44,557 nt of DNA, taken from positions 1 to 44,557 of IMG/VR virus record IMGVR_UViG_3300036791_000398. One strand, given 5' to 3'. Every line of letters begins with the position of its first letter. Position 1 is the first letter of the stretch. Shown here one piece after another: positions 14,140 through 31,221 of this stretch. The stretch comes from a virus. The translations under genes were made by a program, and so were the position numbers. The notes below the pieces were generated by a model. The model had not been told where the DNA came from and searched no databases. It worked only from the letters and a program-made list of their open reading frames with translations.

Positions 14140-15021
14140 ATGACGTCTGTAGCTGAGCGCCGGGCGCGGACAGGAATCCCGCACCCGAAGTGGCGGGTCA
14201 TCAGCAAGAGGTTCCCGATGGACGAGATCCGCTACGAGGTCCTGCACACAGACCTCCTCCGGGTCGCCGGCTATCAGCGTCCTCCCGTGCCGCGGCTCTG
14301 CGCGGCTATCGCCCAAGAGTTCGATCCGCTCCTTGCGGGCACGCTGGTCATCTCCCACCGCGACAACGCGTTCTGGGTCGTCGACGGTCAGCAGCGCCTC
14401 ATCGGCGCACGGTCGGCAGGCCAGGCAAGCCTCGCGTGCCTCGTCGTCGAGGGGCTGACCTACGAGTACGAGGCGCAAGTCTTCGGGCTCCTCAACGACA
14501 AGCGCGTTGCCGTGAGCGCGGTCGCAAAGTTCAAGGCGGCGGTCGAGGGACAGGAGCCGTGGGCGATGGCGATCGTTGGGATCGTGACCAACCGGGGAGG
14601 GATGATTCGCGGCGTCGGCGGCCGAGGCAGCGCGACGGGGATCAAGGCAGTCGATGCGCTCCGCACGATCTATCTGAGGAGCGGTCCCGAGCGGCTCGAC
14701 ATGATCCTGGCCCTGATCGGCGAGGCCTTCGGGGAGCTCTCGGACGTGACCGCGACATCGCGGCTGCTTCGCGGCCTCGAGGTGCTGATCGCGGCCGAGC
14801 ATCCAAAGCTCAACTGGGACCGGTTCACGAAGAAGCTCGCGGCGTCGTCGAACGACGAGATCGACAAGCTCGCGCGCCGGTTCACCGTCAATACGAACAC
14901 GAGCGGCCGGGCGACGTACCTGGCGCTGCTCGAGATCTACAACAAGGGCACCCGGTCGAAGATCGAGCCCAAGGCAAAGATCGTCTTCAAGAAGGAGGAG
15001 TCCGATGAGTGCGGAGACTGA
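14140..15021 (+). CDS. ParB-like nuclease-fold protein (DUF6551 type)
   Basis: 293 residues with AGGAGG 8 bases upstream of ATG. Residues about 38-125 carry the ParB/sulfiredoxin-type core, including VVDGQQRLIGARSAG (the DGxxR box), then a conserved YEYEAQVFGLLNDKR element. The rest is helical, ending in a Lys-rich stretch. Related phage and plasmid proteins use this fold for NTP-dependent DNA binding or nicking. Its 3' end overlaps the SSB-like gene by 17 bases. Codon choice is slightly less G+C-biased than in neighbours, which may mean later arrival. Confidence 0.65.
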   Translation: MTSVAERRARTGIPHPKWRVISKRFPMDEIRYEVLHTDLLRVAGYQRPPVPRLCAAIAQEFDPLLAGTLVISHRDNAFWVVDGQQRLIGARSAGQASLACLVVEGLTYEYEAQVFGLLNDKRVAVSAVAKFKAAVEGQEPWAMAIVGIVTNRGGMIRGVGGRGSATGIKAVDALRTIYLRSGPERLDMILALIGEAFGELSDVTATSRLLRGLEVLIAAEHPKLNWDRFTKKLAASSNDEIDKLARRFTVNTNTSGRATYLALLEIYNKGTRSKIEPKAKIVFKKEESDECGD

Positions 15022-18549: not shown

Positions 18550-18586
18550 AAAAAAAAGCCCCCGCGACCCGAAGGTCGCGGGGGCT
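18550..18586 (-). terminator. Intrinsic terminator of the leftward operon
   Basis: AGCCCCCGCGACC (18557-18569), loop CGAA, GGTCGCGGGGGCT (18574-18586): a perfect 13-base G+C-rich stem. Eight A residues (18550-18557) lie on its left, giving a U run for leftward transcripts. It sits between convergent gene sets and may also stop rightward RNA, though the T-rich part there is poor. Confidence 0.85.
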
Positions 18587-18606
18587 GCTTCTGCCACGGT
18601 CGTAGG

Positions 18607-19053
18607 TTACTTCTCGCCTTCGGGGAGCTTCTCCCGGTTGATGATGAACCGGAACGACCAGTACTTGTAGCCGTCGACGTGCAGATACTTGTACTTGTAG
18701 AACGTCTTGCCGTGGTCGGACGAGAACTCGGCCGTGTAGCCCTCCGTCCGGATCAGGTTCCGGAACCAGTCGTGCCACGCCGTCGGCGGCGGCATCGTCT
18801 TGCCGGCGACCGCCTGGCCGCGCACGGTGTACTCGTGCGGGATATGCGCGTAGCGGTCGCTGGTCGTGGCCTTCCAGCCCGCCGTGGCGATGAACTCCCT
18901 GGCCCCGCCCGGCGGCACGTCAGGCGGGTCGAACCGGACGATCTCGACGCCGGCGCGCTTCGCCGCCGCCTCGATCCTCTTCGCCATCTCCTCGTCCTCC
19001 GTGTCCGCGACGAGCCAGACGTTCTTGAGCCCAGGCATCCGCCAGCGCGTCAC
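18607..19053 (-). CDS. Protein of unknown function, last in leftward operon
   Basis: 148 residues, GTG 19053 in the stop of the preceding gene. An N-terminal part (VWLVADTEDEEMAKRIEAAAKRAGVEIVRFDPP) looks like a small Rossmann-type or TOPRIM-like fragment; the second half is aromatic and basic (TAWHDWFRNLIRTEGY, KTFYKYKYLHVDGYKYWSF). No motif fixes the function. It ends 21 bases from the terminator. Confidence 0.5.
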   Translation of the reverse strand: MTRWRMPGLKNVWLVADTEDEEMAKRIEAAAKRAGVEIVRFDPPDVPPGGAREFIATAGWKATTSDRYAHIPHEYTVRGQAVAGKTMPPPTAWHDWFRNLIRTEGYTAEFSSDHGKTFYKYKYLHVDGYKYWSFRFIINREKLPEGEK

Positions 19054-19442
19054 GACGTCACCTGGCACTCGGCCCGCAGGTCTTCCGGGTCGCTGATGCC
19101 GAGCCAGAAGCACACGGCGTCGCCGGACTCGGCGTCGTCGAGGACGAGCTCGGGCCCGGCCTCCAGCTCGTAGAAGCGGCCGACCACGAACACCTGCTCG
19201 GCCGGCACCACGGCGCGGGCCACGGTCGGGTAGCGGCGCTCATGCCTGCCTGCCGCGATCCTGACGCGGTCAGCCCACGTCTTCATGTTCACCGCCCCGT
19301 AGCGGTTGCCCTCGTAGTCGATCACCACCTGCTCCCCGAACGGCCCGCTCTTGTCGCCGACAGGCGAGCCGACGACCCCGGACTTCGGCAGGATCAGGTC
19401 GACCAGCTCCGGCATCGGAATATAGACCGCGACCGTGCTCAT
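19050..19442 (-). CDS. Small protein of unknown function
   Basis: 130 residues from ATG 19442 (overlapping the upstream stop). It is largely beta-structured: VVIDYEGNRYGAVNMKTWADRV, then a Tyr/Val-rich segment and an acidic part before the end. Possibly a small barrel domain. It is coupled on both sides in the leftward operon; no function can be assigned. Confidence 0.5.
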   Translation of the reverse strand: MSTVAVYIPMPELVDLILPKSGVVGSPVGDKSGPFGEQVVIDYEGNRYGAVNMKTWADRVRIAAGRHERRYPTVARAVVPAEQVFVVGRFYELEAGPELVLDDAESGDAVCFWLGISDPEDLRAECQVTS

Positions 19443-19960
19443 CGCAGCATCCCCTCGACCACGTCGCGGAGATTGACGACGGCCGCCTTGAACGCGACCC
19501 TCGCCCTGACGACGGCGCGAGTGGCCTCGACGAGCGGATCGCCCGAGTAGTCGTCGTCCAGCTCGATCTCGGTCTCCTCCTCGAGCAGCTCGGGCAGCGG
19601 CGGCGGCAGCTCGGCCTTCGTCGCGGCCGACGGGAGCGGCTCGTCGACCGGCCGCTCGGCCTTGCCGTTGCGGTGCTCTTCGCAGAGGCCGGCGTACATG
19701 CCGTAGCGGTTCGCCTCTTCGCCGCAGACACGGCACGGCACGGTCTTGCCGCGCGCGGCCATGCGTTCCGATTGCTTCACGTCGACCTCCTGGTGGTCGT
19801 GGGGTAGCTGTCCGTTCTCGTCTTCGAAGTCGGCGAGCGGAACGCCGCGCTCGGCGGCGTTCCGCATCGCGTTCGACTCGACGGCCATGCCGTCCATCGC
19901 CAACTCAAGGTGCTGCTCGTCTGCGTCGACGATGTCGAGCAGGTCGCGTTCCAAGGTCAC
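19439..19960 (-). CDS. Zinc-knuckle protein downstream of the ligase
   Basis: 173 residues from GTG 19960 with AGGAGG upstream. The N-terminal half is acidic and helical with several His (DADEQHLELAMDGM). CRVCGEEA...CEEH (about residues 78-98) is a zinc-knuckle. A Pro/Glu linker leads to a C-terminal helix (ATRAVVRARVAFKAAVVNL). The start overlaps the ligase stop. It might be an end-joining accessory by location; that is inference. Confidence 0.5.
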   Translation of the reverse strand: MTLERDLLDIVDADEQHLELAMDGMAVESNAMRNAAERGVPLADFEDENGQLPHDHQEVDVKQSERMAARGKTVPCRVCGEEANRYGMYAGLCEEHRNGKAERPVDEPLPSAATKAELPPPLPELLEEETEIELDDDYSGDPLVEATRAVVRARVAFKAAVVNLRDVVEGMLR

Positions 19961-21156
19961 GATTCCCTCCTGACCTCGGAAGCTTTCTTGTCGGTTCGGA
20001 TCCCGAGCAGCGCCGGGTGCCAGAGGCATCCGTCCGCTGTCCACCGCTGGAACTGAACCTGCACGACCACCAGCGGCTTGACCCAGGTGATCGTCTTGAG
20101 CTCCGTCCGGCCGAAGCCGCCGGTTGCGATCGGAGCCTGGTCGGTCGACGCGATCCGCGTGAACGACTCCCACAGGTTGTAGTCGCCGCCCGTGCCGACC
20201 GAGCCGGTGTAGACGAGCTCGCCGTCGTCGTGCACGGCCAGGAGCAGCGACCCGGCGGCGCCGGCGCGCTTGCCCTCGCCGGGTCTCCACCCGACGACGA
20301 CGAACTCCTGCTCGTTGCGGACCTTGACCTTGATCCACTCGCTTGAGCGCTTGCCCTCCTGATACCGCGACGAGCGCCGCTTGGCGACGAGGCCTTCGAG
20401 GCCCTGGTCGCGGCACATCTCAAGCAGCGCCTGCCCGTCAGCGAACGACGGCGACACCGACACCGACTTGAGCGGGTTCGCGTTCATCAGGAAGTCGAGC
20501 GCCTCCCGCCTGACCGACCACGGCGTGCCACGCAGGTCGTGGCCGTCGAGCTCGACCAGGTCGAAGAGCACGAACGCCGCGTTGCCGTTCGCCTTGATCA
20601 GGTCGCCGAACGACGAGTGCCCTGCCTGATCGAGGACGCAGATCTCGCCGTCGACGATGCAGTTCGGCAGGCCCGCGAGCTGCTTGGCCAGGTGCGGGAA
20701 CTGCTGGCCGTACTGCGTCGTGCCGGCCCGGCTCTGCATCGTCACCTGACCGTCGATCACGGTGGCGATGCACCGGTAGCCGTCCCACTTGACCTCGTAC
20801 ACCCAGTCGTCGCCGGACGGGACGTCGCCGTTCGAGGCGAGCATCGCGCCGACCTGGCGAGCGACCGTGACCGTGTTCCCGGCGATCACGCCGGGCTGGA
20901 CGCCCTCATCGCTGATCACCATCACCGGCACGCTGGTCGACCACAGGTCGGCCCAGTCAACGACGGCGACGCCCAACTCGCGCGCCTTGTCCGTCTTGAC
21001 CCTGCCCACCTTCGCACCGACCACCAGCACGTCGGTGCTGGCGCTGACCGCCGACTGCACGATCGCACCTGCCTCGCGGAGCTTCGTCTCCGCTGTCGCG
21101 CGTGACTCGCCGGCGATCACGCCGGTGACGACCACACGCCGTCCAGACAGCTCCAT
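19957..21156 (-). CDS. ATP-dependent DNA ligase with N-terminal BRCT domain
   Basis: 399 residues, ATG 21156 after GGGAGGC. Residues 1-73 form a BRCT domain (GRRVVVTGVIAGESRATAETK ... VDWADLW, broken here for length). Residues 105-275 are the LigD-type nucleotidyltransferase: motif I KWDGYR with the AMP-accepting K123, FVLFDLVELDG (196-206), EGLVAKR (254-260) and WIKVK (274-278). Residues 280-390 fit the OB domain. It would seal double-strand breaks with Ku, encoded upstream in the same operon. Bacterial LigD usually fuses the ligase to polymerase and nuclease domains; here these are absent and BRCT, normally on NAD-dependent ligase, is present. Confidence 0.85.
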   Translation of the reverse strand: MELSGRRVVVTGVIAGESRATAETKLREAGAIVQSAVSASTDVLVVGAKVGRVKTDKARELGVAVVDWADLWSTSVPVMVISDEGVQPGVIAGNTVTVARQVGAMLASNGDVPSGDDWVYEVKWDGYRCIATVIDGQVTMQSRAGTTQYGQQFPHLAKQLAGLPNCIVDGEICVLDQAGHSSFGDLIKANGNAAFVLFDLVELDGHDLRGTPWSVRREALDFLMNANPLKSVSVSPSFADGQALLEMCRDQGLEGLVAKRRSSRYQEGKRSSEWIKVKVRNEQEFVVVGWRPGEGKRAGAAGSLLLAVHDDGELVYTGSVGTGGDYNLWESFTRIASTDQAPIATGGFGRTELKTITWVKPLVVVQVQFQRWTADGCLWHPALLGIRTDKKASEVRRES

Positions 21157-21171
21157 CGCTGCCTCCCTTCG

Positions 21172-21240
21172 GTTGAGTCCCTGGAATCGGAGCCGGACGG
21201 CTCCCGCCACTCGCAAAGCTGCGACTCGCAACCTTGCGAG
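21172..21240 (-). promoter_or_regulatory. Two-hairpin leader element, ligase copy
   Basis: Reading leftward: hairpin CTCGCAA/TTGCGAG (21225-21240), hairpin GGAGCC/GGCTCC (21189-21204), then TTCCAGGGACTCAAC (21172-21186), a Shine-Dalgarno and the ATG at 21156. The same order occurs before the Ku and helicase genes with different stem sequences. Confidence 0.65.
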
Positions 21241-21250
21241 GGCGGCAACG

Positions 21251-21427
21251 TCAGGCTGAGGCCGTGATCTCGACCTCGAGCTTCTTGCCGGGCGCCCAGC
21301 CGAGCTCGGCCAGCGCGCCCTTGCGGACGTACAGGCTGCCGATCTTCGGCTCGGCGAGGCCGGTCACGACCTCGTCGAACTTGAACGTGCCCTTCGTCTC
21401 CTTCGCTTCCTCGAACACGATCTTCAT
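21251..21427 (-). CDS. 58-residue phage protein between ligase and SSB-tail gene
   Basis: ATG 21427 overlaps the stop of the preceding gene (TGATG). Two short strands flank a GSLYVRKGALAELG segment, a pattern I have seen in small conserved actinophage early proteins but cannot name. The beta-rich form and the LEVEIT end suggest a small barrel. Co-transcribed with Ku and ligase. Confidence 0.55.
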   Translation of the reverse strand: MKIVFEEAKETKGTFKFDEVVTGLAEPKIGSLYVRKGALAELGWAPGKKLEVEITASA

Positions 21428-21666
21428 CAGAACGGGACCTCCTTGTCGTTGGTGTCATCGAACACTCCGTCGAAGTACTCGTCGACTCCGTCGGTTACGA
21501 GCCGCAACGGCTCGGCCTTTCGTGACGCGATCGCGTCGTCGAGCGGTGGCAGGAGCCGCAGATGCGGCTCCTGCCTGACCTGCTCGACCGGCAGCCGCAG
21601 GAACCTCGCCAGGTCGCGGAGCAGCTCGCCGTTCAGAGCGACGTCGCGGACGAACTCGTCGCTCAC
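21427..21666 (-). CDS. 79-residue protein with SSB-like acidic tail
   Basis: GTG 21666 lies in the Ku stop codon. Residues 1-45 are helical (VALNGELLRDLARFLRLPVEQVRQ). The C-terminus is acidic and ends DDTNDKEVPF, resembling the SSB tail (acidic run, then I/V-P-F) that recruits repair enzymes. No OB fold is present, so it is not an SSB itself. Placement between Ku and ligase suggests a docking peptide for end-joining or a decoy for SSB partners; this is inference. Confidence 0.55.
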   Translation of the reverse strand: MSDEFVRDVALNGELLRDLARFLRLPVEQVRQEPHLRLLPPLDDAIASRKAEPLRLVTDGVDEYFDGVFDDTNDKEVPF

Positions 21667-22508
21667 GCCGCCACCTTCTTCCGCGGCTTCGCCTTCGGCT
21701 TCGGCGCGGCCGCCTCGACGCTCGCCTGCAACGCTGCGAGCAGGTCGACGACCGGCGCGGCCTCGGGCTCGTCCGCGACGACCGGTGCCGGGAGTCCCTG
21801 CGCCGCCGCCTCGATCGCCGCGACCAGCCGCTCGTTGTACTCGTCGGTCACGTCGCTGAGGTCGACGTCCGAGGCGAGCGTGCCGAGCAGCTGCTCGGCC
21901 ATGTTCAGCTCGGCCTCGCTCGGGTCGGGCCGCTGGTCGAGCCCGGTCTTGACCAGGCCGACGTCGTTCCACGACACGTTCGCGTCGTAGGTGAGGACGT
22001 CCGCGACCAGCGTCTCGGTCGCCTGCGACCACCGGATCGCCACGACCCGCGTTGACGTGGTCAGGACGGTCGTGCCGACCAGCGCCTTGCCTGTCTGCTG
22101 GAGCAGGCGGGCGAGGAGGTCGTGTGCCGCGACGACCGTGTCGTTCTCGTCCTGCGGCCACACGACGTACGACTTCTCGAAGTAGAGCGGGTCGATCGAG
22201 CCGATGTCGACGAAGCCGGTCAGCTTCAACTGGCCGTCACGCGACGACTTGAAGTCGCTGCGGTCGACGCCGGTCACCATCCGGCCCTCGTACTCGAACC
22301 CGGTCTCGATGCCCTCGGCGACGTCGCCGCTGACCGTGCAGTGGTTCTGCTGCTTGACCGGCTCGTGGTGGCACGAGCAGACGCGCCTGCCGCCGACCGC
22401 CGTGGAGCGGATCAGCGGCGCGATCTTCACCGGCACGTTCACCAGACCGACGCTGATCGTCAGCCCGGTCCCGCGCGCCGGCGCGGGGTACTTGGCCTTG
22501 CTAGGCAT
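21663..22508 (-). CDS. ku: Ku homologue (bacterial/phage type)
   Basis: 281 residues, typical for prokaryotic Ku. The N-terminus (GTGLTISVGLVNVPVKI) is the standard first strand and the body carries the barrel-forming segments (EYEGRMVTGVDRSDF, IGSIDPLYFEKSYVVWP). A CSCHHE...C cluster (about residues 43-57) may bind zinc. The C-terminus is Pro/Lys/Ala-rich (KPKAKPRKK), like the DNA-binding tails of actinobacterial Ku. Ku ring dimers hold broken DNA ends and recruit ligase. Start: ATG 22508 with AAGGAGG and the two-hairpin leader. Confidence 0.9.
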   Translation of the reverse strand: MPSKAKYPAPARGTGLTISVGLVNVPVKIAPLIRSTAVGGRRVCSCHHEPVKQQNHCTVSGDVAEGIETGFEYEGRMVTGVDRSDFKSSRDGQLKLTGFVDIGSIDPLYFEKSYVVWPQDENDTVVAAHDLLARLLQQTGKALVGTTVLTTSTRVVAIRWSQATETLVADVLTYDANVSWNDVGLVKTGLDQRPDPSEAELNMAEQLLGTLASDVDLSDVTDEYNERLVAAIEAAAQGLPAPVVADEPEAAPVVDLLAALQASVEAAAPKPKAKPRKKVAA

Positions 22509-22521
22509 CGCTGCCTCCTTC

Positions 22522-22563
22522 GTGAGTCCCTGGAACCCCTTGCGGGGATGGAGCGGTCGCTCC
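22522..22563 (-). promoter_or_regulatory. Two-hairpin leader element, Ku copy
   Basis: Reading leftward: hairpin GGAGCG/CGCTCC (22550-22563), hairpin CCCC/GGGG with loop GCAA (22536-22547), then TTCCAGGGACTCAC (22522-22535), AAGGAGGCAGCG and the ATG at 22508. Confidence 0.65.
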
Positions 22564-22599
22564 GGGTGCCGCCCCTGTCCGGGGCGGACACCGCAACGA

Positions 22600-22779
22600 C
22601 TACGCCTCGTTCTGGAAGTACAACGCGAGCGTCGCGTGGGCGGTGGCGACGGTCGCGTGCGCCGTCTTCCCCGCCGCAACGAACTGGTTCTTCATCCGGC
22701 GCTCATCCAGTTGCTTCGCCTCGGCCAGCGCTTCGGCCGCGAGGCGGGCGTGCTCTGCTGCGAGCTCCCGGTTCGTCAT
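22600..22779 (-). CDS. 59-residue helical protein
   Basis: ATG 22779 overlaps the upstream stop (ATGA). The sequence is nearly all helix, Ala/Glu/Lys-rich (LAAEHARLAAEALAEAKQLD), ending ATLALYFQNEA. No family recognised. It precedes the Ku leader by about 37 bases. Confidence 0.5.
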   Translation of the reverse strand: MTNRELAAEHARLAAEALAEAKQLDERRMKNQFVAAGKTAHATVATAHATLALYFQNEA

Positions 22780-22904
22780 GCTGGCACCTTCTCCGGCTCG
22801 ACCGGCACTTCGACCGGCGTCGGCTCCTCGACGGGAGCGTCCGGTGCGAACGGGTCTTCGAGCGGCTCCACGATGATCGCGGGCTTCGGCTCTCCGATCT
22901 CCAT
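22776..22904 (-). CDS. 42-residue acidic Pro-rich peptide
   Basis: ATG 22904. Composition is dominated by Pro, Glu and Val (PVEEPTPVEVPVEPEKVP), so it is probably unstructured. It is called because it is a clean in-frame gap filler with ATGA coupling to the next gene and G+C-rich third positions. Function unknown. Confidence 0.45.
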   Translation of the reverse strand: MEIGEPKPAIIVEPLEDPFAPDAPVEEPTPVEVPVEPEKVPA

Positions 22905-22910
22905 GTTGAC

Positions 22911-23399
22911 CTACCTTCCTCCGAGCGCTCTGCGGCGCTCGGCTTCGCTGAACAGGAAGCCGACCGTGACGTCGACGTTGTAGGCGTCGGCCAGCGGCTC
23001 GGCGTATTGCCAGTACTCGTACGGGACGATCAGCCGCTTGATGCGGCCCTTCTCGGCCTTCCAGCCTTGCGTGCCTTCGATCACCTTCCCGGCGAACGCG
23101 ACCTCGCCGATCGCGTGGATCGCGTTGTCGCCGTAGGCGCCGTAGGCGAGCGAGACCAGGTGCTCCCTGGTCTTCGCGGCGTACAGGCCGCAGGAGCAGC
23201 TCTCGACCGGAAGGTCGTGCGTGTGTCCTCGCGGGCAGCGGGCGACGAACCACCGCTTCGTCGGCCAGATCGCGTCGTCGTGACCAACCGAGCTGGCGGC
23301 GTTGATGCTCATCAGCCTGGGGACGCGGAGCGACCCGACGATCTGCCAGGCCCTCCACCCGAGCATCTCCCCGATGAAGTCAGGAGCGCGGTCATTCAT
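22911..23399 (-). CDS. Conserved-looking actinophage protein with zinc-like cluster
   Basis: 162 residues, ATG 23399 overlapping the helicase gene end by 8 bases. The segment CPRGHTHDLPVESCSCGLYAA (about residues 55-75) offers C, H, H, C, C ligands. It starts APDFIGEMLGWRAW. I believe similar proteins occur in other actinobacterial phages but cannot name a function. The C-terminal half is mixed alpha/beta. Confidence 0.55.
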   Translation of the reverse strand: MNDRAPDFIGEMLGWRAWQIVGSLRVPRLMSINAASSVGHDDAIWPTKRWFVARCPRGHTHDLPVESCSCGLYAAKTREHLVSLAYGAYGDNAIHAIGEVAFAGKVIEGTQGWKAEKGRIKRLIVPYEYWQYAEPLADAYNVDVTVGFLFSEAERRRALGGR

Positions 23400-24558
23400 C
23401 GCCGTCTTCCTCCAGCGGGTCGTCGACCGTGCCGGCGGCGTCGATCGCGGCCAGCACGTCCTCGACCGTCATCTGCCCTTCCTCGATCTTCACCCCGGCC
23501 TGAGCGGCCAGGGCGCCGACCTTCAAGGCCGGGTGCGCGCTCGGCAGCGACCAAAAGTAGTCGCGGCCCTTGCCGAACCCGCGGTGCTGCTCGCGCTTCT
23601 CGATGCCGAGCTTGTCGGCGGCGCGGCGGATCGTCCGCCACGCGATGCCGTCCTCGTCGGCCTTCTTGCGGACGTCGTCGGCGTGGAGCTCGCCGAACAT
23701 CAGGAGCGACGTCAGCCACTCGCTGGCGACGGCGCGCTTGGTCGGGTCGACGTCCTTGCCCGCGTTCGTGCCCTCCTCGAGGATCTTGTGAGGCGGCACT
23801 TCCGACAGCGGGTCGAGCAGGTCGAGCTTGGCGATCTCGGTGACCTCGCCGTCGATCTCGGTCTCGACGAGGTCGAAGCTGAACGTCATCGAGCCTTCCT
23901 CCGACACGTTCGACTTCGCCGCTGCCAGCACGCGCTCGTCCGGGTCGTCGACGTTCTTGCCGAACAGGTAGACGACGCGGCAGTTGGCCATGAACCCCGA
24001 GCCGCCGCCGAGGACGGCGTCGAGGGCGTGGCCCTTCTTCGATGCGCCCTTGCGGGTGTGGTGGAGCGCCACGATCGCCAGGCCCGTGCGTTCGCACAGC
24101 TCGGTGATCGGGCGGATCTTCGCGCGGCTCTCAGCGATCGCCCTCGGCAAGTGCGCCGACAGCGGGTCGATGATCAGCAGCGTGATGTTGAGCGCCCTGA
24201 CCATCGTCTCAAGCTGAGCGATGCCCTCGGGCGTGCCCAGCTCGGGCGTCCAGAAGTGGATCTTGCTCAGGTCGGCTCCCGCAACGCGGAGGCGCGGCCT
24301 GGTCGTTGCGCCGCGCAGGTCCTCGACGTTCGAGAACAGCACGGACTCGCCCTGCTGGCTGACGTGAGCCGCCAGCCAGGCGGTGAACAGCGACTTGCCC
24401 TGGCCAGGTCGGCCAGCGACCATCGAGATCATCGAGCGCGGGATGCGCTGGTCGACGACCCACTCGACGCGCTCTTCCACCGTGTCCTGTGCGAGCTGGT
24501 GATCGTCGGGCATCTTGTGTGCAGGCGCCTTCGGCGCCGGCTTCTTGCGAGCAGCCAT
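23392..24558 (-). CDS. RepA-type replicative helicase/ATPase (AAA_25)
   Basis: 388 residues, ATG 24558 after AGGAGGC. RecA-like ATPase: Walker A GRPGQGKS (49-56), Walker B LLIIDPLSAH with D131, and a sensor-type ALHHTRKG segment. The order and spacing match RepA/gp41-type hexameric helicases used by plasmids and phages. The C-terminal 130 residues contain a winged-helix-like part (ADDVRKKADEDGIAWRTIRR). It would unwind DNA at the phage origin; the partner organiser is at 17303. The two-hairpin leader precedes it. Confidence 0.85.
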   Translation of the reverse strand: MAARKKPAPKAPAHKMPDDHQLAQDTVEERVEWVVDQRIPRSMISMVAGRPGQGKSLFTAWLAAHVSQQGESVLFSNVEDLRGATTRPRLRVAGADLSKIHFWTPELGTPEGIAQLETMVRALNITLLIIDPLSAHLPRAIAESRAKIRPITELCERTGLAIVALHHTRKGASKKGHALDAVLGGGSGFMANCRVVYLFGKNVDDPDERVLAAAKSNVSEEGSMTFSFDLVETEIDGEVTEIAKLDLLDPLSEVPPHKILEEGTNAGKDVDPTKRAVASEWLTSLLMFGELHADDVRKKADEDGIAWRTIRRAADKLGIEKREQHRGFGKGRDYFWSLPSAHPALKVGALAAQAGVKIEEGQMTVEDVLAAIDAAGTVDDPLEEDGDE

Positions 24559-24573
24559 TGCTGCCTCCTGTCT

Positions 24574-24629
24574 GTTGAGTCCCTGGAATCGGTGCTTCGA
24601 GCACCAGGCCGCCCGCCGTTACGCGGGCG
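24574..24629 (-). promoter_or_regulatory. Two-hairpin leader element, helicase copy
   Basis: Reading leftward: hairpin CGCCCGC/GCGGGCG (24610-24629), hairpin GGTGCT/AGCACC with loop CGA (24591-24605), TTCCAGGGACTCAAC (24574-24588), AGGAGGCAGCA and ATG 24558. Confidence 0.65.
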
Positions 24630-24635
24630 TCCCTG

Positions 24636-24914
24636 CTACTCGGGTAGAGCGTCGATCCCGGCGTCCGTCAGGTGGTAGCCGTCGCGTTCCTTGACGACCA
24701 ACCCACGGTTGGCGAGTGCATAGAGTGCGCGGCCGATCTGCTGCCGCGTCATCGTCTCGCCGTCTTCGGAGCCGACCAGGTTCGTCTCGATCATGGTCGG
24801 CGTCCAGCCCATCGACTGCGGTGCGAGGCAGAACGTGAACAGCACGCTCTGCCAGCGGCGGTTGATCGTCCGCTTCCAGCCGCCCGGCTTGGTGGCGAAG
24901 TAGAGGTCTCTCAC
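24636..24914 (-). CDS. Winged-helix protein
   Basis: 92 residues from GTG 24914 in the stop of the preceding gene. Residues about 35-90 form a winged helix (MTRQQIGRALYALANRGLVVKERDGYHLTDAG). Probably a DNA-binding early regulator. It precedes the helicase leader by a short gap. Confidence 0.55.
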   Translation of the reverse strand: MRDLYFATKPGGWKRTINRRWQSVLFTFCLAPQSMGWTPTMIETNLVGSEDGETMTRQQIGRALYALANRGLVVKERDGYHLTDAGIDALPE

Positions 24915-25279
24915 GCGGCCTGCTTGGCGACTGCGGCGTTGACGCGCTCGATGATCGCCCCGGCGACCTGGTCGACGTTCTCGTCGGTCAGACGGAACGC
25001 CTCCCACTCGCGGTTCCAGCTCCGGGCGGCCTTGTGGTCGCCCTTCTGCCGCTCGTTGCCCTTGCCGTCCGTCTTCGTGCGGCGACGGTCGACGCGGGTC
25101 ACGCGCGTGCCGTTGTTGATGAAGGCGACGACCTCGTCGCCGACCTTGACCTGCCACGGCTCGACGTTCGGGTTGACGTCGATGTCGCCGTCCGCGCCTT
25201 CGACGACCAGCTTGAGCATGTTCTCGACTCGGTCGAGGGCGGTCATCGGGACGAGCGGCGTTGCGGTGCTTGCAGACAT
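24911..25279 (-). CDS. First gene of the leftward operon, unknown function
   Basis: 122 residues, ATG 25279 with AAAGGAG upstream. An N-terminal helix leads into strands (PWQVKVGDEVVAFINNGTRVTRVDRRR), then a basic loop and a C-terminal helix (ENVDQVAGAIIERVNAAVAK). It may be a small DNA-binding protein. Its leader carries two hairpins and CTCTCAACGAAAGGAG, a relaxed version of the repeated leader. Confidence 0.5.
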   Translation of the reverse strand: MSASTATPLVPMTALDRVENMLKLVVEGADGDIDVNPNVEPWQVKVGDEVVAFINNGTRVTRVDRRRTKTDGKGNERQKGDHKAARSWNREWEAFRLTDENVDQVAGAIIERVNAAVAKQAA

Positions 25280-25293
25280 CGTCTGCTCCTTTC

Positions 25294-25350
25294 GTTGAGA
25301 GGGAGTCGCGGGTTGCGAACTCCGCGAGCGCCGGCCGCAGTCGACGCTCG
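25294..25350 (-). promoter_or_regulatory. Related leader before the first leftward gene
   Basis: Reading leftward: hairpin with arms CGAGCG/CGCTCG, hairpin with arms CGCGG/CCGCG, then ACTCCCTCTCAACG (about 25293-25306), AAAGGAG and ATG 25279. The TTCCAGGG part is not conserved, so this copy is degenerate. Confidence 0.4.
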
Positions 25351-25677
25351 CGCAGCTCGCGCTGCGCGGAAAGCCCAAGGAGGCGACCCCGTTGCGGTTC
25401 CACCCGCCGAATCGTCGCCTCCTCTATGCCATCCGTGTGAACAGCGCCCGTCTTGAGCCAGCCCGCTATGCCAAGCTGATCGCGGCCCGGGCGCCTTCAC
25501 ACCAGCCGGGATAGACCGACTGGCGGGCGGGGACCTTCCGCGAACTGTTCACCGAATGATTCGTCTGACGGCTGGCGGCTCGATCTACTGAGGCTCTGAT
25601 GAATCCCTCGCTCCAACGGAGTCCGGGGCACTCTGCGCCGTCTGACTATGTTCTCGCTTTCCCTCTTTCCTACCTAC

Positions 25678-25706
25678 ATTCTAACACATAGCTGTCCAAC
25701 AAGCAA
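25678..25706 (-). promoter_or_regulatory. Leftward sigma70-type promoter
   Basis: Read leftward: TTGCTT (25701-25706), 17-base spacer, TAGAAT (25678-25683), a near-consensus pair in an A+T-rich pocket. It would drive the leftward operon with a leader of about 390 bases. The interval 25280-25896 holds no convincing gene; it contains this promoter, the inverted repeat at 25687-25731 and that at 25826-25880. Confidence 0.6.
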
Positions 25707-25731
25707 GACAACTAGGAAGTGGCCAGCTATG
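25687..25731. repeat. Operator-like inverted repeat over the leftward promoter
   Basis: CATAGCTGTCC (25687-25697) pairs with GGCCAGCTATG (25721-25731): 10 of 11 positions match. The left arm falls in the promoter spacer and the right arm just upstream of the -35, so a dimeric or looping repressor bound here would block the promoter. Confidence 0.45.
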
Positions 25732-25825
25732 ACGGGCGCCCGCAATCAAGCCGAAACCGCCCGGTCAGACGAGGCCTCGCTAGCTGGGCGGCTCCGCACA
25801 CTTACTGGCACTGTACGATGCCGGG

Positions 25826-25880
25826 CGCGGGTCGGTCGTGGTTGAGTCCCTGGAAAGACGCTGCCTCCGGCCGACCCGCG
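25826..25880. repeat. Long inverted repeat with a leader-repeat copy in its loop
   Basis: CGCGGGTCGG (25826-25835) and CCGACCCGCG (25871-25880) are perfect 10-base arms. The 35-base loop contains GTTGAGTCCCTGGAA (25841-25855), the same 15-mer found in the leaders of ligase and helicase, but here no leftward gene follows. Confidence 0.6.
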
Positions 25881-25884
25881 TGCG

Positions 25885-25896
25885 TACTCTCCATAG
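25885..25896 (+). promoter_or_regulatory. Leaderless promoter of the small basic gene
   Basis: TACTCT (25885-25890) lies 6 bases before ATG 25897 and no Shine-Dalgarno is visible, the fourth example of a TACnCT element directly abutting a start codon. It could start the rightward late operon. Confidence 0.4.
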
Positions 25897-26007
25897 ATGG
25901 CCAGGGGCAAGCTGAGCAACTTCGGCTCGAAGAAGGCGGCGCCGTTCCAGAAGGGCGGCAAGCGCCGACCACCGTCGACGTCGAAGGCCACCAGCAAGAA
26001 GAAGTGA
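25897..26007 (+). CDS. 36-residue Lys-rich basic protein
   Basis: Start at ATG 25897 and stop overlapping the HNH gene GTG. Composition is Lys/Gly/Ser/Pro (KKAAPFQKGGKRRPPSTSK), likely a disordered nucleic-acid-binding peptide. First gene of the rightward packaging block. No family recognised. Confidence 0.45.
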   Translation: MARGKLSNFGSKKAAPFQKGGKRRPPSTSKATSKKK

Positions 26008-26444
26008 AGCGGCGCGTCACCGTGCGGCTCTGCTCTGAGCCGGGCTGTGGTGAAGTGCTGGTGGGCGGGCGTGCTGAATGCGAGCAGCATCGCCAGGCCG
26101 GTAGGTCGGGCACGCCTGGCTACGGTCGACGCTGGCGCCGGATCAGGGACGCCTACATGCGAGAGCACCCCATGTGCGAGCGCTGCCCTGCCGTCGCCGT
26201 CGACGTGCACCATCGGGACAGTCAGCACCCGTCGGCGCCCGCCGCGAATAGATGGTCGAACCTGGAGAGCCTGTGTCGTTCATGCCATCGACGCGCAACC
26301 GAAGACGAGCGACGAGCGCGCGGTCGGGCTGGCGTGCGTGACGAAAAACTAGGGGGCTACCCTCGAAGTGGCGAAGAGGAGAGCAAGCTGACACGAGACA
26401 GGTCGAGGAAATTCACGCCAACCCAAGGGGGTATGACACCGTGA
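26004..26444 (+). CDS. HNH endonuclease
   Basis: 146 residues from GTG 26004. A first zinc pair (CSEPGC, C..H) is followed by HPMCERC, then the HNH core: VDVHHRD, SNLESLC and CRSCHRRAT give the H...N...H triad with four Cys for zinc. Phage HNH proteins next to terminase commonly assist DNA packaging; it precedes the ParB/methyltransferase cassette and the terminase genes. The last 45 residues are basic. Confidence 0.8.
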   Translation: MKRRVTVRLCSEPGCGEVLVGGRAECEQHRQAGRSGTPGYGRRWRRIRDAYMREHPMCERCPAVAVDVHHRDSQHPSAPAANRWSNLESLCRSCHRRATEDERRARGRAGVRDEKLGGYPRSGEEESKLTRDRSRKFTPTQGGMTP

Positions 26445-27184
26445 AGCTGGGCGCGAAGCACGCAGCGAGCGAGCAGACCGAGGCACCCGACGAGCAGACC
26501 GAGGCACCCGACGAGCAGACCGAAGCACCGGACGAGCAGGAGCCGGGCACCGAGCCCGAGGTCGACCCGGAAGCAGCGGCGACCTGGGAGTCGCGGATCG
26601 TCGGCCACGACAACGTGCCGCCCGACCAGCTCGTCGCCAACCAGCACAACTGGCGGCTGCACCCGCAGCACCAGGCCGAGGCGGTCAAGGAGGCGATGAC
26701 GCGGGTCGGGTGGATCCGGCCGGTCATCGTCAACCGTCGTTCGGGCCAGCTCGTCGACGGCCACCTGCGTGTCGCGCTCGCGCTCGATCGCGGCGAGGCC
26801 ACCGTGCCGGTCGACTACGTCGACCTGAGCGAAGACCAGGAGCGGGTCGCGCTCGTCACGCTCGACCCGACGTCGGCGCAAGCGGGCACCGACGAAGGCC
26901 AGCTCCGGTCGCTGCTCTCCGTGCTCAACGGGTCGTTCGACGTCGCGCTGCAGAAGGTCATGGACGACCTGGGCCGCGACACCAGCCGCACGATGCCGCC
27001 GGCGCCGACGCAGGCCGACATCGAGCGCGGCGCGGACGAGCTCGCCGCGAAGTTCCAGGCGCGGTCGACCGAGATGCTCGACGTGATCTGCCCGCACTGT
27101 GCCGGTGAGTTCGCCGTCAACCTGACCGAGATGAAGCACACCCGCGAGGCAGACGCCGACGAGGTTGAGCCGGTCGAGGCGTGA
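26441..27184 (+). CDS. ParB-like protein opening the modification cassette
   Basis: 247 residues. Residues 6-35 are a threefold tandem EQTEAPD repeat encoded by 21-base DNA repeats, a flexible acidic arm. Residues about 58-150 carry the ParB fold: DQLVANQHNWRLHPQ, then VDGHLRVALAL (the DGxxR box). CPHC near residue 227 is a half zinc knuckle. ParB-like proteins before methyltransferases and terminase are frequent in actinophages. The stop overlaps the next gene. Confidence 0.7.
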   Translation: MKLGAKHAASEQTEAPDEQTEAPDEQTEAPDEQEPGTEPEVDPEAAATWESRIVGHDNVPPDQLVANQHNWRLHPQHQAEAVKEAMTRVGWIRPVIVNRRSGQLVDGHLRVALALDRGEATVPVDYVDLSEDQERVALVTLDPTSAQAGTDEGQLRSLLSVLNGSFDVALQKVMDDLGRDTSRTMPPAPTQADIERGADELAAKFQARSTEMLDVICPHCAGEFAVNLTEMKHTREADADEVEPVEA

Positions 27185-27789: not shown

Positions 27790-28415
27790 CGGCGAACCCG
27801 TGGGACTACGGCGAGGAGGGCCTGCGCTACCCGGTCAACCCCGGCGAGACGTGGGCGCTCCTCAAGCACACGTTCGCCTGCAGGTCTCTGCTCGACGGCG
27901 GCATCCGCCTCGACGTTGACCTGGTCTACACCGACCCGCCGTGGCAGCAAGGCAACGTCAACGCGTTCCGGACGAAGGCCGGTCTGCCGCACGCCGACCA
28001 TCACTGGCTCGACCTGTACCGTCGCGTGGTCGAGCTCGCCGCCGGCGCCCCGCTCTGGCTCGAGGGCGGCCGCAAGCAGGCGGCCCAGGTGCGGACGGTG
28101 CTGCCGGGCCCGATCATCGCCACGTTCGACATCACCTACTACCGCAAGCACCCGTGTGTCCTGCACTACTCGGGGCCTGTCCCGCCGCCGTGCGACCCGA
28201 CGGGCCTGGACGACGAGCACACGCCCGGGTTCGTGCTCTCCAGCTACCCGGCCGGTGTCGTCGCCGACCTGTGCGCCGGTCGCGGCCTGACCTCACGGTG
28301 CGCCCACCGGCGCGGCTGGCGGTCGATCAACGTGGAGCTGAACCCGAAGCGGACGAGCGCCGCCCTGTCCCGCCTCGCCGACGTCACCGGCGTGCAGCCC
28401 GAGCGGGTCGCGTGA
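27786..28415 (+). CDS. DNA/RNA amino-methyltransferase-like protein with DPPW motif
   Basis: 209 residues from GTG 27786. VYTDPPWQQG (48-56) gives the canonical DPPW box, and DLCAGRG (161-167) with INVELNPKR gives SAM motifs I and II. Same order and spacing as the preceding EPPW protein, so the two are paralogues. It may methylate adenine or cytosine amino groups in phage DNA; specificity is unknown. It is coupled to the PAPS-reductase-like gene. Confidence 0.65.
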   Translation: MTANPWDYGEEGLRYPVNPGETWALLKHTFACRSLLDGGIRLDVDLVYTDPPWQQGNVNAFRTKAGLPHADHHWLDLYRRVVELAAGAPLWLEGGRKQAAQVRTVLPGPIIATFDITYYRKHPCVLHYSGPVPPPCDPTGLDDEHTPGFVLSSYPAGVVADLCAGRGLTSRCAHRRGWRSINVELNPKRTSAALSRLADVTGVQPERVA

Positions 28416-29578
28416 CCGATCCGCAGGCACGCAAGCCGACCGGGCTGGGGATGCGCGTGTACGAGAACCGGTCGGTCCGCGACGCCGCCTATGACCGGAT
28501 CGAGTGGATCTTCCGCGAGTTCCCGTCGGTGATGGTCAACGTGTCGGGCGGCAAGGACTCGACCGTGCTGCTCAAGATCGCGCTCGACGTCGCCGCCGAG
28601 TTGAAGCGGCTGCCGGTGAAGGTGTACTGGCTCGACCAGGAGGCCGAGTGGCAGTCCACCGTCGACATCGTGCGGGAGTGGATGCACCGAGACGACGTCG
28701 ACCCGGTCTGGCTGCAGGTGCCGTTTCGGATCTTCAACGCGAGCTCGCAGATCGACCACTGGCTCCTCGCCTGGGACCCGGCAGCGTCCGAGCGCTGGGT
28801 GCACCCGCAAGACCCGCTGTCGTACAAGCTCAACCGGTACGGCACCGACCGGTTCCACAAGCTCTTCAACGCGGCGCTGGAGCGGCACCTGGGGCGCGGC
28901 AAGGCGGCCGGGATCTCCGGGGTGCGGTGCGAGGAGTCGCCGACGCGCCGGCTCGGCCTGACCTCGAACGCCGCATACAAGTGGGTGACGTGGGGCCGGT
29001 CGTCGAACCCAAAGCTCCACCACTACGCGTTCTACCCGCTCTACGACTGGTTCGGCACCGACGTCTGGAAGTTCATCCACGACGAGGGCCTGACTTATAG
29101 CCGCCATTACGACCAGCTCTACCAGCACGGCTCGCCGATGCGGCTGATGCGCGTCTCGAACCTCCATCACGAGACGGCGGTCAGGAGCCTGTTCCAGCTC
29201 CAGGAGATCGAGCCGGACACGTACGAGCGCCTGGTCGCCAGGATCGGCGGCATCGACATGGCCGGGAAGCTCGGCCTCGACGACTACTTCCCGGACGAGC
29301 TGCCGTTCATGTTCAAGTCGTGGCTTGAGTACCGCGAGCACCTGCTCGACACGCTCGTCGACGACGACTACCGGCCGGCGCTCCGGCGCCTGTTCGCTCA
29401 GGTCGATCGGGGTCTGCCGCCTGGGTTCCGGCAGACTGCCCGCTTCACGCAGGTGCGGTCGATCCTCACCTGTGACTGGGAAGGCGCGAAGCTGGAGTCC
29501 TGGTACAACTCGCCGCAGGTCTGGAAGGAGCGGAAAGCGTGGCAAGAGCGGAAACGCTCGGCGCTCGGAACGACCTGA
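28412..29578 (+). CDS. PAPS-reductase-family PP-loop protein (IbrA-like)
   Basis: 388 residues. SGGKDS (45-50) is the PP-loop of the ATP-pyrophosphatase/PAPS reductase superfamily; GISGVRCEESPTRR and a YPLYDWFGTDVWKFI region follow, as in the DUF3440/IbrA group found in phages. These enzymes adenylate or thiolate a substrate; relatives (DndC) act in DNA phosphorothioation. GTG start overlaps the methyltransferase stop. The partner ParB-like gene overlaps its 3' end by 40 bases. Confidence 0.75.
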   Translation: MTDPQARKPTGLGMRVYENRSVRDAAYDRIEWIFREFPSVMVNVSGGKDSTVLLKIALDVAAELKRLPVKVYWLDQEAEWQSTVDIVREWMHRDDVDPVWLQVPFRIFNASSQIDHWLLAWDPAASERWVHPQDPLSYKLNRYGTDRFHKLFNAALERHLGRGKAAGISGVRCEESPTRRLGLTSNAAYKWVTWGRSSNPKLHHYAFYPLYDWFGTDVWKFIHDEGLTYSRHYDQLYQHGSPMRLMRVSNLHHETAVRSLFQLQEIEPDTYERLVARIGGIDMAGKLGLDDYFPDELPFMFKSWLEYREHLLDTLVDDDYRPALRRLFAQVDRGLPPGFRQTARFTQVRSILTCDWEGAKLESWYNSPQVWKERKAWQERKRSALGTT

Positions 29579-30180
29579 CGGACGCCCAGCCGGTCTCGGA
29601 CGTGCGCTGGGTCCCGCTCGAGCTGGTCGAGGCGAACGACTACAACCCGAACAAGGTCGCGGCGAACGAACTGCGGCTCCTCTACCACTCGATCATGCAG
29701 GACGGCTACACGCAGCCGGTCGTGACGATCTACGACGCGGCACGCGACGTGTACGTGATCGTGGACGGGTTCCACCGCTGGCTCGTGATGAAGCGCAACG
29801 CCGACGTCCGCGCGATGACCGGAGGCCTGCTGCCGGTCGTCGTCTTGGACAAGCCGCTCGCCGACCGCATGGCGTCGACCGTCCGCCACAACCGCGCGCG
29901 CGGCAAGCACTCGGTCGCCGGCATGAGCACGATCGTGTTCGGGATGCTCGACTCCGGCATGACCGACGCGGAGGTCTGCTCCGAGCTCGGCCTGGAGCCG
30001 GACGAGCTCCTCCGGCTCAAGCACATCACCGGCTTCTCCAAGCTGTTCGCCGACACCGAGTACAACCGGGCCTGGCAGACGCGGAGGATGATCCAGCTTC
30101 GGCGCGACTGGGAGATCAACAACGCCGAGAGGATCGAGGCGGACGAGCGCTCGCGCGACCCTCGGGTGAATGGAAGCTAG
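29539..30180 (+). CDS. IbrB-like ParB-fold protein
   Basis: 213 residues from GTG 29539, with AAGGAG upstream. NDYNPNKVAANELRLL and VIVDGFHRW (74-82) are the ParB-like core with the DGxxR box; the HNRARGKHS and helical HTH-like segment follow. Coupling to a PAPS-reductase-like gene reproduces the IbrA/IbrB pair known from prophages. It ends near the small terminase gene. Confidence 0.75.
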   Translation: MARAETLGARNDLTDAQPVSDVRWVPLELVEANDYNPNKVAANELRLLYHSIMQDGYTQPVVTIYDAARDVYVIVDGFHRWLVMKRNADVRAMTGGLLPVVVLDKPLADRMASTVRHNRARGKHSVAGMSTIVFGMLDSGMTDAEVCSELGLEPDELLRLKHITGFSKLFADTEYNRAWQTRRMIQLRRDWEINNAERIEADERSRDPRVNGS

Positions 30181-30988
30181 CCCGGCACAGTGCTCGTCGC
30201 TGACCAAGCGCGGCGAGCGGTGCAAGAACCGGGCCTCGATCGACGGCCTCTGCGTGCGCCACGCGACCCGTGAGGGGTCGGTGTTCTCGCAGGAGCGCGC
30301 CGTCCACCTGGCCGCCGTGATCTCGGCCGGCAACTCGACCGCCGTCGCGCTCCGGGTCTGCGGGATCAGCAAGACGACGTTCCAGAACTGGATGCGCCGC
30401 GGCGGCCGGGGCGAGTCCCCGTACGAGGCGTTCCGCCTCGACATCCAGCGTGCCCGGGCGTCGGCCGAGGCCAGGCACGTCACGCAGGTCGCGGCGGCTG
30501 CCGTCGACGACTGGCGCGCGGCGTCGTACATGCTCGACCGGCAGCTTCGCCGCCGAGACGACGTCGAGGACGAAGCCACCGAGGACACGTCCGACCTGGC
30601 CGCAGAAGTGGCCGCGTCGGCGGCTGAGGAGGCCAGGAGGACGCTGACGGCGATCGGGGAGGACTCGGAGCTGTCGGAGGGCGCGATCGACCGCTACGTG
30701 GCCGCTGTCGTCGTCTGGAAGATGCTGGAGGCGGGCTGGGTCAAGCTCGGCCGCCCCGCGACGACGCTCGGAGGCGCCACCGGCCTGAGCCAGGTCGCGC
30801 ACCCGCTGATCGGCCAGATGGCGGCCGCCAGGCGGGAGTGCGCCGAGCTGGGCGCGGCGATCGGCCTCGATGTCCGCAGCCGCCTGCGGCTCAACCGCCG
30901 AGTCGGCGCCGGCAGACCGGCAGGCGCGGCGTCGGCGCTCGACCGGTCGCAGCCGCCGATGCGGCTCGTCAAGGGCGGCGCTGAGTGA
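30170..30988 (+). CDS. Small terminase subunit with extra zinc finger and HTH
   Basis: 272 residues. C8, C18, C28 and H31 form a zinc finger (CSSLTKRGERC, LCVRH). Residues 40-95 are a terminase-small-type HTH (AVALRVCGISKTTFQNWM). Residues 150-250 resemble P27-family small terminase (ELSEGAIDRYVAAVVVWK). It would recognise the packaging site and guide the large subunit, two genes on. The three-part architecture is unusual. Overlaps the upstream gene. Confidence 0.65.
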   Translation: MEASPAQCSSLTKRGERCKNRASIDGLCVRHATREGSVFSQERAVHLAAVISAGNSTAVALRVCGISKTTFQNWMRRGGRGESPYEAFRLDIQRARASAEARHVTQVAAAAVDDWRAASYMLDRQLRRRDDVEDEATEDTSDLAAEVAASAAEEARRTLTAIGEDSELSEGAIDRYVAAVVVWKMLEAGWVKLGRPATTLGGATGLSQVAHPLIGQMAAARRECAELGAAIGLDVRSRLRLNRRVGAGRPAGAASALDRSQPPMRLVKGGAE

Positions 30989-31221
30989 TCGACGACGCCG
31001 AGCAGGAGATGATCCACGAGGCGCTGCAGGCGCATCTCGGTCTGGACGAGGGCGAGGTGCTGACCGGCTGGATCGTGGTCTACGAGCACCAGACGGCAGG
31101 CGACAAGGCGGCTGCCGGGCACGTCTATGGCCCGGCTGGGATGACGACGTGGCGTGCGCTTGGCCTCGCCGAGTGGGCGGCGCGGTTCACACTCGCCCCG
31201 GATCAGGAGGACGACGCGTGA
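30985..31221 (+). CDS. Small protein between terminase subunits
   Basis: 78 residues from GTG 30985. Acidic, with GEVLTGWIVVYEHQ and GLAEWAARFTLAP segments. Small genes of this type sit in front of terminase in many actinophages; function unknown. Stop overlaps the large terminase GTG. Confidence 0.55.
   Translation: MIDDAEQEMIHEALQAHLGLDEGEVLTGWIVVYEHQTAGDKAAAGHVYGPAGMTTWRALGLAEWAARFTLAPDQEDDA

Follow-up and report, generated by a model that had tools for sequence, protein, structure and literature searches.

The stretch of DNA analysed here (the window) is the complete IMG/VR record IMGVR_UViG_3300036791_000398, 44,557 bases long and from a soil phage. It carries a leftward operon that codes for a Ku protein, an ATP-dependent ligase of the non-homologous end joining (NHEJ) family and a helicase-like ATPase. 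In order of transcription the genes are those for the helicase-like ATPase, a protein of 162 amino acids (aa), a 59-aa open reading frame (ORF), Ku, two small ORFs and the ligase. The principal features are as follows.

18557..25378, minus strand: leftward operon with helicase, Ku and ligase, recognised as a run of same-strand genes with high GC at third codon positions and a hairpin at its end
23392..24558, minus strand: RecA-fold helicase-like ATPase, 388 aa, AAA_25 / DnaB_C-like (Pfam AAA_25 8.5e-17; PHROG primase/helicase 1.8e-10)
21663..22508, minus strand: Ku, 281 aa, with core, conserved minimal C-terminal motif and short basic tail (profile, PDB and Foldseek matches)
19957..21156, minus strand: ATP-dependent ligase, 399 aa, with N-terminal BRCT domain, linker, and LigD-type nucleotidyltransferase and OB domains (profile and PDB matches)
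20941..21150, minus strand: BRCT domain of the ligase, residues 3-73 (Pfam BRCT 8.2e-7; NAD-ligase BRCT models; PDB matches)
20323..20814, minus strand: adenylation-domain core of the ligase (PF01068 1e-27)

The Ku ORF begins with an ATG at 22508, preceded by a strong Shine-Dalgarno sequence (GGAGG), and ends with a stop at 21663. Its product matches the Pfam Ku profile at 8e-20 (72 bits vs a cut-off of 25), the PHROG family 'Ku-like DNA end binding' at 9e-31 and, in a sequence search of the PDB, known Ku at 1.6e-19, while its AlphaFold model matches the Ku proteins of M. tuberculosis and B. subtilis (Foldseek 2.6e-16). The beta-barrel core domain is present, as indicated by the Pfam score and by the Foldseek matches to both bacterial proteins. 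The original prediction of a clear Ku in this operon is thus upheld, for a protein that is divergent. Near its end lies the motif D255-L-L-A-A-L-Q-A-S-V264, which is common to M. tuberculosis Ku in the PDB alignment; in the form D-L-[LM]-A-A-L-x-A-S-[VL] it is retained by nearly all of the 15 phage Ku proteins compared (that of the window and 14 others). In B. subtilis and M. tuberculosis LigD is recruited by this minimal end of Ku, and the LIG domain, even when expressed alone, is acted on and stimulated by the Ku core (PMC13201618); the naming of the C-terminal motif as LigD-recruiting rests on that source.

The listed ligase ORF opens at a TTG at 21231, and an ATG at 21156 follows the sequence GGGAGG; translation likely starts at this ATG and runs to the stop at 19957. 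The protein matches Pfam DNA_ligase_A_M (1.5e-25) and DNA_ligase_A_C (1e-17), passes the NCBIfam equivalog-domain model NHEJ_ligase_lig (TIGR02779; 250.7 bits vs a cut-off of 227.75) and has as its best solved relative the LIG domain of M. tuberculosis LigD (2e-53). The LigD-family LIG domain spans residues 98-399. Nucleotidyltransferase motifs I to V are intact (K123 in KWDG, D169-G170-E171, F198-D199, E254-G255, K259 and K276/K278), as is the C-terminal R-x-D-K (R387-x-D389-K390). The polymerase (POL) domain of LigD (PF21686) was absent from all records searched (G000, G019, G022, G023, G014, G001, G024 and G025), with B. subtilis as positive control, and the phosphoesterase (PE) domain (PF13298) was absent from seven records of the phage and its relatives. 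The PE domain is dispensable for some LigD proteins, for example that of B. subtilis. By its domain content the phage enzyme is a LIG-type ligase without the POL and PE domains, not a full LigD. The description 'LigD-type ligase' given in the original prediction therefore fits the LIG domain and does not extend to the whole of LigD, and the BRCT domain had been overlooked.

This BRCT domain reaches 21.4 bits in Pfam, vs a cut-off of 21.3, and matches NAD-ligase BRCT models at 1.5e-13 and at about 1e-12 to 2e-12; among PDB entries it matches LigA (1.5e-7) and the RFC1 BRCT (7e-6). The BRCT part of the AlphaFold model, which is of low confidence (pLDDT 35-56) and serves as support only, gives the secondary-structure order E-H-E-E-H-E-H. 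The RFC1 BRCT binds 5'-phosphorylated DNA. Since T11, R19 and K54/K57 of the ligase align with T, R and K residues of this domain, binding of DNA ends by the phage BRCT is a reasonable guess, though no more. No BRCT was found in the other phage ligases examined, and the ligases of the three relatives begin directly at LIG; the joining of BRCT and ligase seems confined to this phage. A Rhodococcus plasmid ligase gave a seeming BRCT alignment and was rejected, as its upstream gene is without BRCT.

That Ku, ligase and a helicase of the RepA/DnaB type belong to one operon, as originally proposed, is borne out by the run of same-strand genes and by a 13-bp leader element.

21174..21186, minus strand: TTCCAGGGACTCA, exact copy before the ligase start
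22523..22535, minus strand: TTCCAGGGACTCA, exact copy before the Ku start
24576..24588, minus strand: TTCCAGGGACTCA, exact copy before the helicase start
25843..25855, minus strand: TTCCAGGGACTCA, fourth exact copy, upstream of the whole operon and with no visible gene start

These four copies, all on the minus strand of the operon region, are the only ones in the window even when up to 2 mismatches are allowed; 0.58 copies are expected elsewhere at that tolerance, and 0 of 100 shuffles reached four copies. Three of them directly precede the ribosome-binding sites of the helicase, Ku and ligase genes, and of no other gene. The sequence GGAGGCAGC is likewise common to these three leaders. As judged from this distribution, the 13-bp leader marks helicase, Ku and ligase as one expression group. 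It is absent from the family sequences compared. The hairpins before the three elements are no stabler than those of shuffled sequence (z -0.3 to -1.3), and no structure is claimed for the leader. A similar arrangement, with a different sequence, is seen in the start-associated sequences that mycobacteriophages of cluster K carry (PMC3203893).

The gene order helicase, ~162-aa protein, Ku, ligase is kept in all four family members with this region sequenced (the window, G019, G022 and G023). In the latter three the identity to the window is 33-35% for Ku, 46-48% for the ligase and 34-35% for the helicase-like ATPase, with 67-74% for the major capsid protein and 45-47% for the sheath. In G019 the stop of Ku and the ATG of the ligase overlap as TGATG. 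In the three relatives the module points the same way as the virion genes and is placed upstream of those for the terminase; in the window (18557-25378) it is inverted. Conservation of gene order across the family indicates that the pair is not accidental. The closest relative (G014, 82-86% DNA identity) was discarded as a test of conservation, as its contig is without exactly window positions 19830-26387.

Outside the family, Ku with a nearby ligase is also found in two virus contigs of 95 kb (G001) and 96 kb (G025), neither recognisably a family member. The count of paired phages is biased upward, as some were found with a ligase query; single-protein scans of IMG/VR gave no relative for Ku and one for the ligase, so that alignment queries were needed. 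Among catalogued phages, Ku matches come from practically only mycobacteriophages, and no LigD-type ligase was found in the Ku-phage records searched. The ligase matches, with 60 of 93 records listed, come from phages of Bacillus, Vibrio, Rhizobium and others, and Ku was found in 0 of 19 ligase-bearing phage records searched. Ku-only, ligase-only and paired phages all exist. Two faecal records labelled 'Bacteriophage sp.' were treated separately: MT838252.1 has chromosomal-looking genes by eye (Ku, formamidopyrimidine-glycosylase-like, ClpC-like), is probably bacterial DNA and was not counted as a phage, and MT838835 was used solely as a ligase sequence.

The Ku closest to that of the window (44-45%) is encoded by G024 (IMGVR_UViG_3300037071_003200, locus L061), and is nearer than the Ku of the window's own family. 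This suggests that Ku has been exchanged between phages. No ligase was detected in G024, a 100-kb virus contig. In a tree, the family Ku proteins and that of G024 form a clade separate from mycobacteriophage Ku, with 100/100 support. A C-x2-H ... C pattern near the N-terminus occurs in all four family Ku proteins (C44, H47 and C57 in the window, residues 44-57, positions 22338-22379) and is a possible metal site.

The remaining features of the operon are listed below.

22911..23399, minus strand: 162-aa protein overlapping the helicase stop, a conserved neighbour without family match
22600..22779, minus strand: 59-aa ORF between the 162-aa gene and Ku, with a look-alike elsewhere in G023 (L046:8545-8817)
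21427..21666, minus strand: 79-aa ORF whose GTG overlaps the Ku stop (GTGA), read from the sequence
21251..21427, minus strand: 58-aa small protein, with relatives 3' of the ligase in G019 and G023 (58% and 50% identity)
18557..18586, minus strand: terminator-like hairpin at the operon end, with 13-bp stem and T-rich tail (hairpin scan)

The 162-aa protein has no match in Pfam or PHROG profile searches and is 43-45% identical to proteins at the same place in G019, G022 and G023. For the 79-aa ORF no homologue was found in comparison with family members. The hairpin scan of the region gave 4 hairpins vs 3.8 expected, of which 18586-18557 has by far the longest stem. A consensus scan of the region found no sigma-70 promoter for the operon.

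Elsewhere the window codes for tail sheath, tube, tape measure, baseplate wedge, portal, capsid and terminase, and for a tyrosine integrase. The phage is contractile-tailed and, because an integrase gene is present, probably temperate. A GC content of 69% and the nearest relatives of the portal, terminase and sheath proteins, which are phages of Actinomycetota, point to a host that is probably an actinobacterium. No prophage relative was found among 84,980 species genomes (two scans, with TerL and major capsid protein queries). The genome also contains a phosphoadenosine-phosphosulfate-reductase-like protein (27941-29578) and, despite its small size, three ParB-like genes (14140-15021, 26441-27184 and 29539-30180). 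Between the terminase subunits lies a 78-aa ORF (30985-31221) that, because it is placed elsewhere in the close relative G014 (26735-26974, 89% DNA identity), is best read as a small mobile gene.

With respect to function, the phage Ku and ligase probably act together. That they constitute a minimal, polymerase-free end-joining module is, in our estimate, an even matter, and that the main use of this module is genome circularisation is put forward tentatively, with rather less than even confidence. In such a scheme Ku, as a ring-shaped homodimer, would slide onto and bridge double-stranded DNA ends; its core and the conserved C-terminal motif would bring in the LIG-type ligase of the phage, and the ligase would seal the nicks. 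Because neither a polymerase nor a phosphoesterase is supplied, only ends that already fit would be joined, that is, short cohesive ends or blunt, 5'-phosphorylated ones. The BRCT domain gained by the ligase, of the LigA/RFC1 type, may add binding of DNA ends (5'-phosphate) or of protein. Made together with the replication helicase, the module would join the phage's own ends soon after injection, and might also mend breaks.

Circularisation is favoured by the analogy with the mycobacteriophage Corndog and by the terminases of the window and G023, both of which have phiC31 TerL as their nearest relative. PhiC31 is a cos phage. A wider reading is doubtful in our view: that, with no NHEJ protein from the host, Ku and a LIG-only ligase circularise phage genomes, and that the grafted BRCT replaces the missing polymerase domain in recognition of 5'-phosphate ends, converging on the eukaryotic plan of Ku with a BRCT-ligase.

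Several observations weigh against circularisation by a dedicated phage module. The contigs of the window and of G014 read as circles; G014 spans the junction between the window's end and start (L029-L031), where ~0.9 kb is missing from the window, and by this comparison the window is a circle that was opened artificially. A 123-bp repeat, typical of circular assembly, is found at the ends of G023. Such contigs fit circular, concatemeric or permuted DNA, and permuted headful DNA would look alike. The terminase subunits of the window (30170-32729) are 26-36% identical to those of G019, G022 and G023, vs 55-74% for portal and capsid, and the packaging module has apparently undergone exchange or fast change. 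Because the terminases have strongly diverged, to 26-28% identity between the window and these three, while Ku and ligase stay, the pair is not tied to one packaging module. In the window itself, the Ku and ligase genes are set apart by two small genes. The Ku protein scores 129.2 bits with the NCBIfam bacterial-Ku equivalog TIGR02772, below the cut-off of 150, and by these scores belongs clearly to the wider Ku family, though as a divergent protein outside the curated equivalog. Finally, the phage Ku, which retains the motif that bacterial Ku uses to recruit LigD, could still work with host LigD. The original interpretation, which includes a possible independence from host LigD, is supported in part.

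The circle-reading contigs leave room for terminally redundant DNA, and therefore repair of double-strand breaks in the infecting phage DNA (caused by restriction, CRISPR, other defences or collapsed forks), with circularisation achieved otherwise, remains a serious rival, though one we consider rather unlikely. The retention of the pair beside diverged terminases would suit such a role, as would its position next to the replication helicase. However, the surroundings of the module contain no recognised nuclease or other repair gene, polymerase-free end joining restores few kinds of break, and the phiC31-type terminases suggest unique cohesive ends.

Less probable is a division of labour in which host LigD is recruited by the phage Ku, in the manner of Omega and Corndog, and the phage's ligase acts separately to seal replicative nicks. 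Each gene is evidently useful alone, since Ku-only phages and ligase-only phages exist, and Ku retains the LigD-recruiting motif. Nevertheless, the ligase belongs to the NHEJ-LIG family rather than to a replicative ligase family, the two genes are tightly linked, with start/stop overlap in relatives, and they have a leader in common. It is very improbable that the genes serve the lysogen through stress repair of host DNA, or that Ku shields ends in the manner of Mu Gam with the ligase incidental: the integrase of a probably temperate phage would agree with this, but the genes share the replication operon of the helicase rather than occupying a place typical of cargo genes, and the pair is conserved.

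Previously, phage Ku had been known only as one half of a system that depends on host LigD. For a phage Ku accompanied by an NHEJ-family ligase of the phage's own, the two being conserved together, no description was found in the literature searched. A survey of ~3,000 actinobacteriophages reported no NHEJ components (PMC7719229), and does not describe the content of uncultivated phages. If the preferred reading of Ku and ligase as an end-joining module is true, the conserved pair would let phages circularise or mend their DNA in hosts without NHEJ, and at least some bacterial viruses seem to bring a whole end-joining system rather than borrow half of it from the host. The pair offers small, testable end-joining proteins, and opens to experiment both a Ku core driving a stand-alone LIG domain in nature and the contribution of a BRCT domain to an end-joining ligase.

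Among known systems, the likening to Omega and Corndog made in the original prediction is apt (PMC4351075, PMC3706429, PMC7719229). These mycobacteriophages of clusters J and O, with their relatives, likewise carry a bacterial-type Ku for which NHEJ circularisation has been proposed; unlike the window phage, they have no LigD-type ligase in the records searched. Where PMC4351075 and PMC7719229 (citing Pitcher 2006) treat the matter, Omega and Corndog are described as using host LigD. Corndog has a 4-base 3' extension, and its circularisation by NHEJ is apparently aided by its own Ku (PMC4351075). Rhizobial temperate phages (phiLM21, PPF1 and others) encode a stand-alone LIG-type ligase, 34-37% identical to that of the window; ligases of this type are without BRCT, and the 19 ligase-bearing records searched are without Ku. 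The bacterial NHEJ systems (Ku and LigD of M. tuberculosis, B. subtilis and P. aeruginosa) have the same Ku core and minimal C-terminal motif and the same LIG family, whereas POL and PE domains are absent from the phage, whose ligase has a BRCT instead. The sequence of this BRCT matches those of bacterial LigA and RFC1, yet its fusion partner in the window is an ATP-dependent NHEJ ligase. Eukaryotic DNA ligase IV is likewise an ATP ligase fused to BRCT that works with Ku, and its tandem C-terminal BRCT binds XRCC4; the window ligase has a single N-terminal BRCT of the LigA/RFC1 type, and the likeness is one of analogy only. As a whole, the phage module resembles the 'nonconventional' LIG-only class of NHEJ (PMC7719229).

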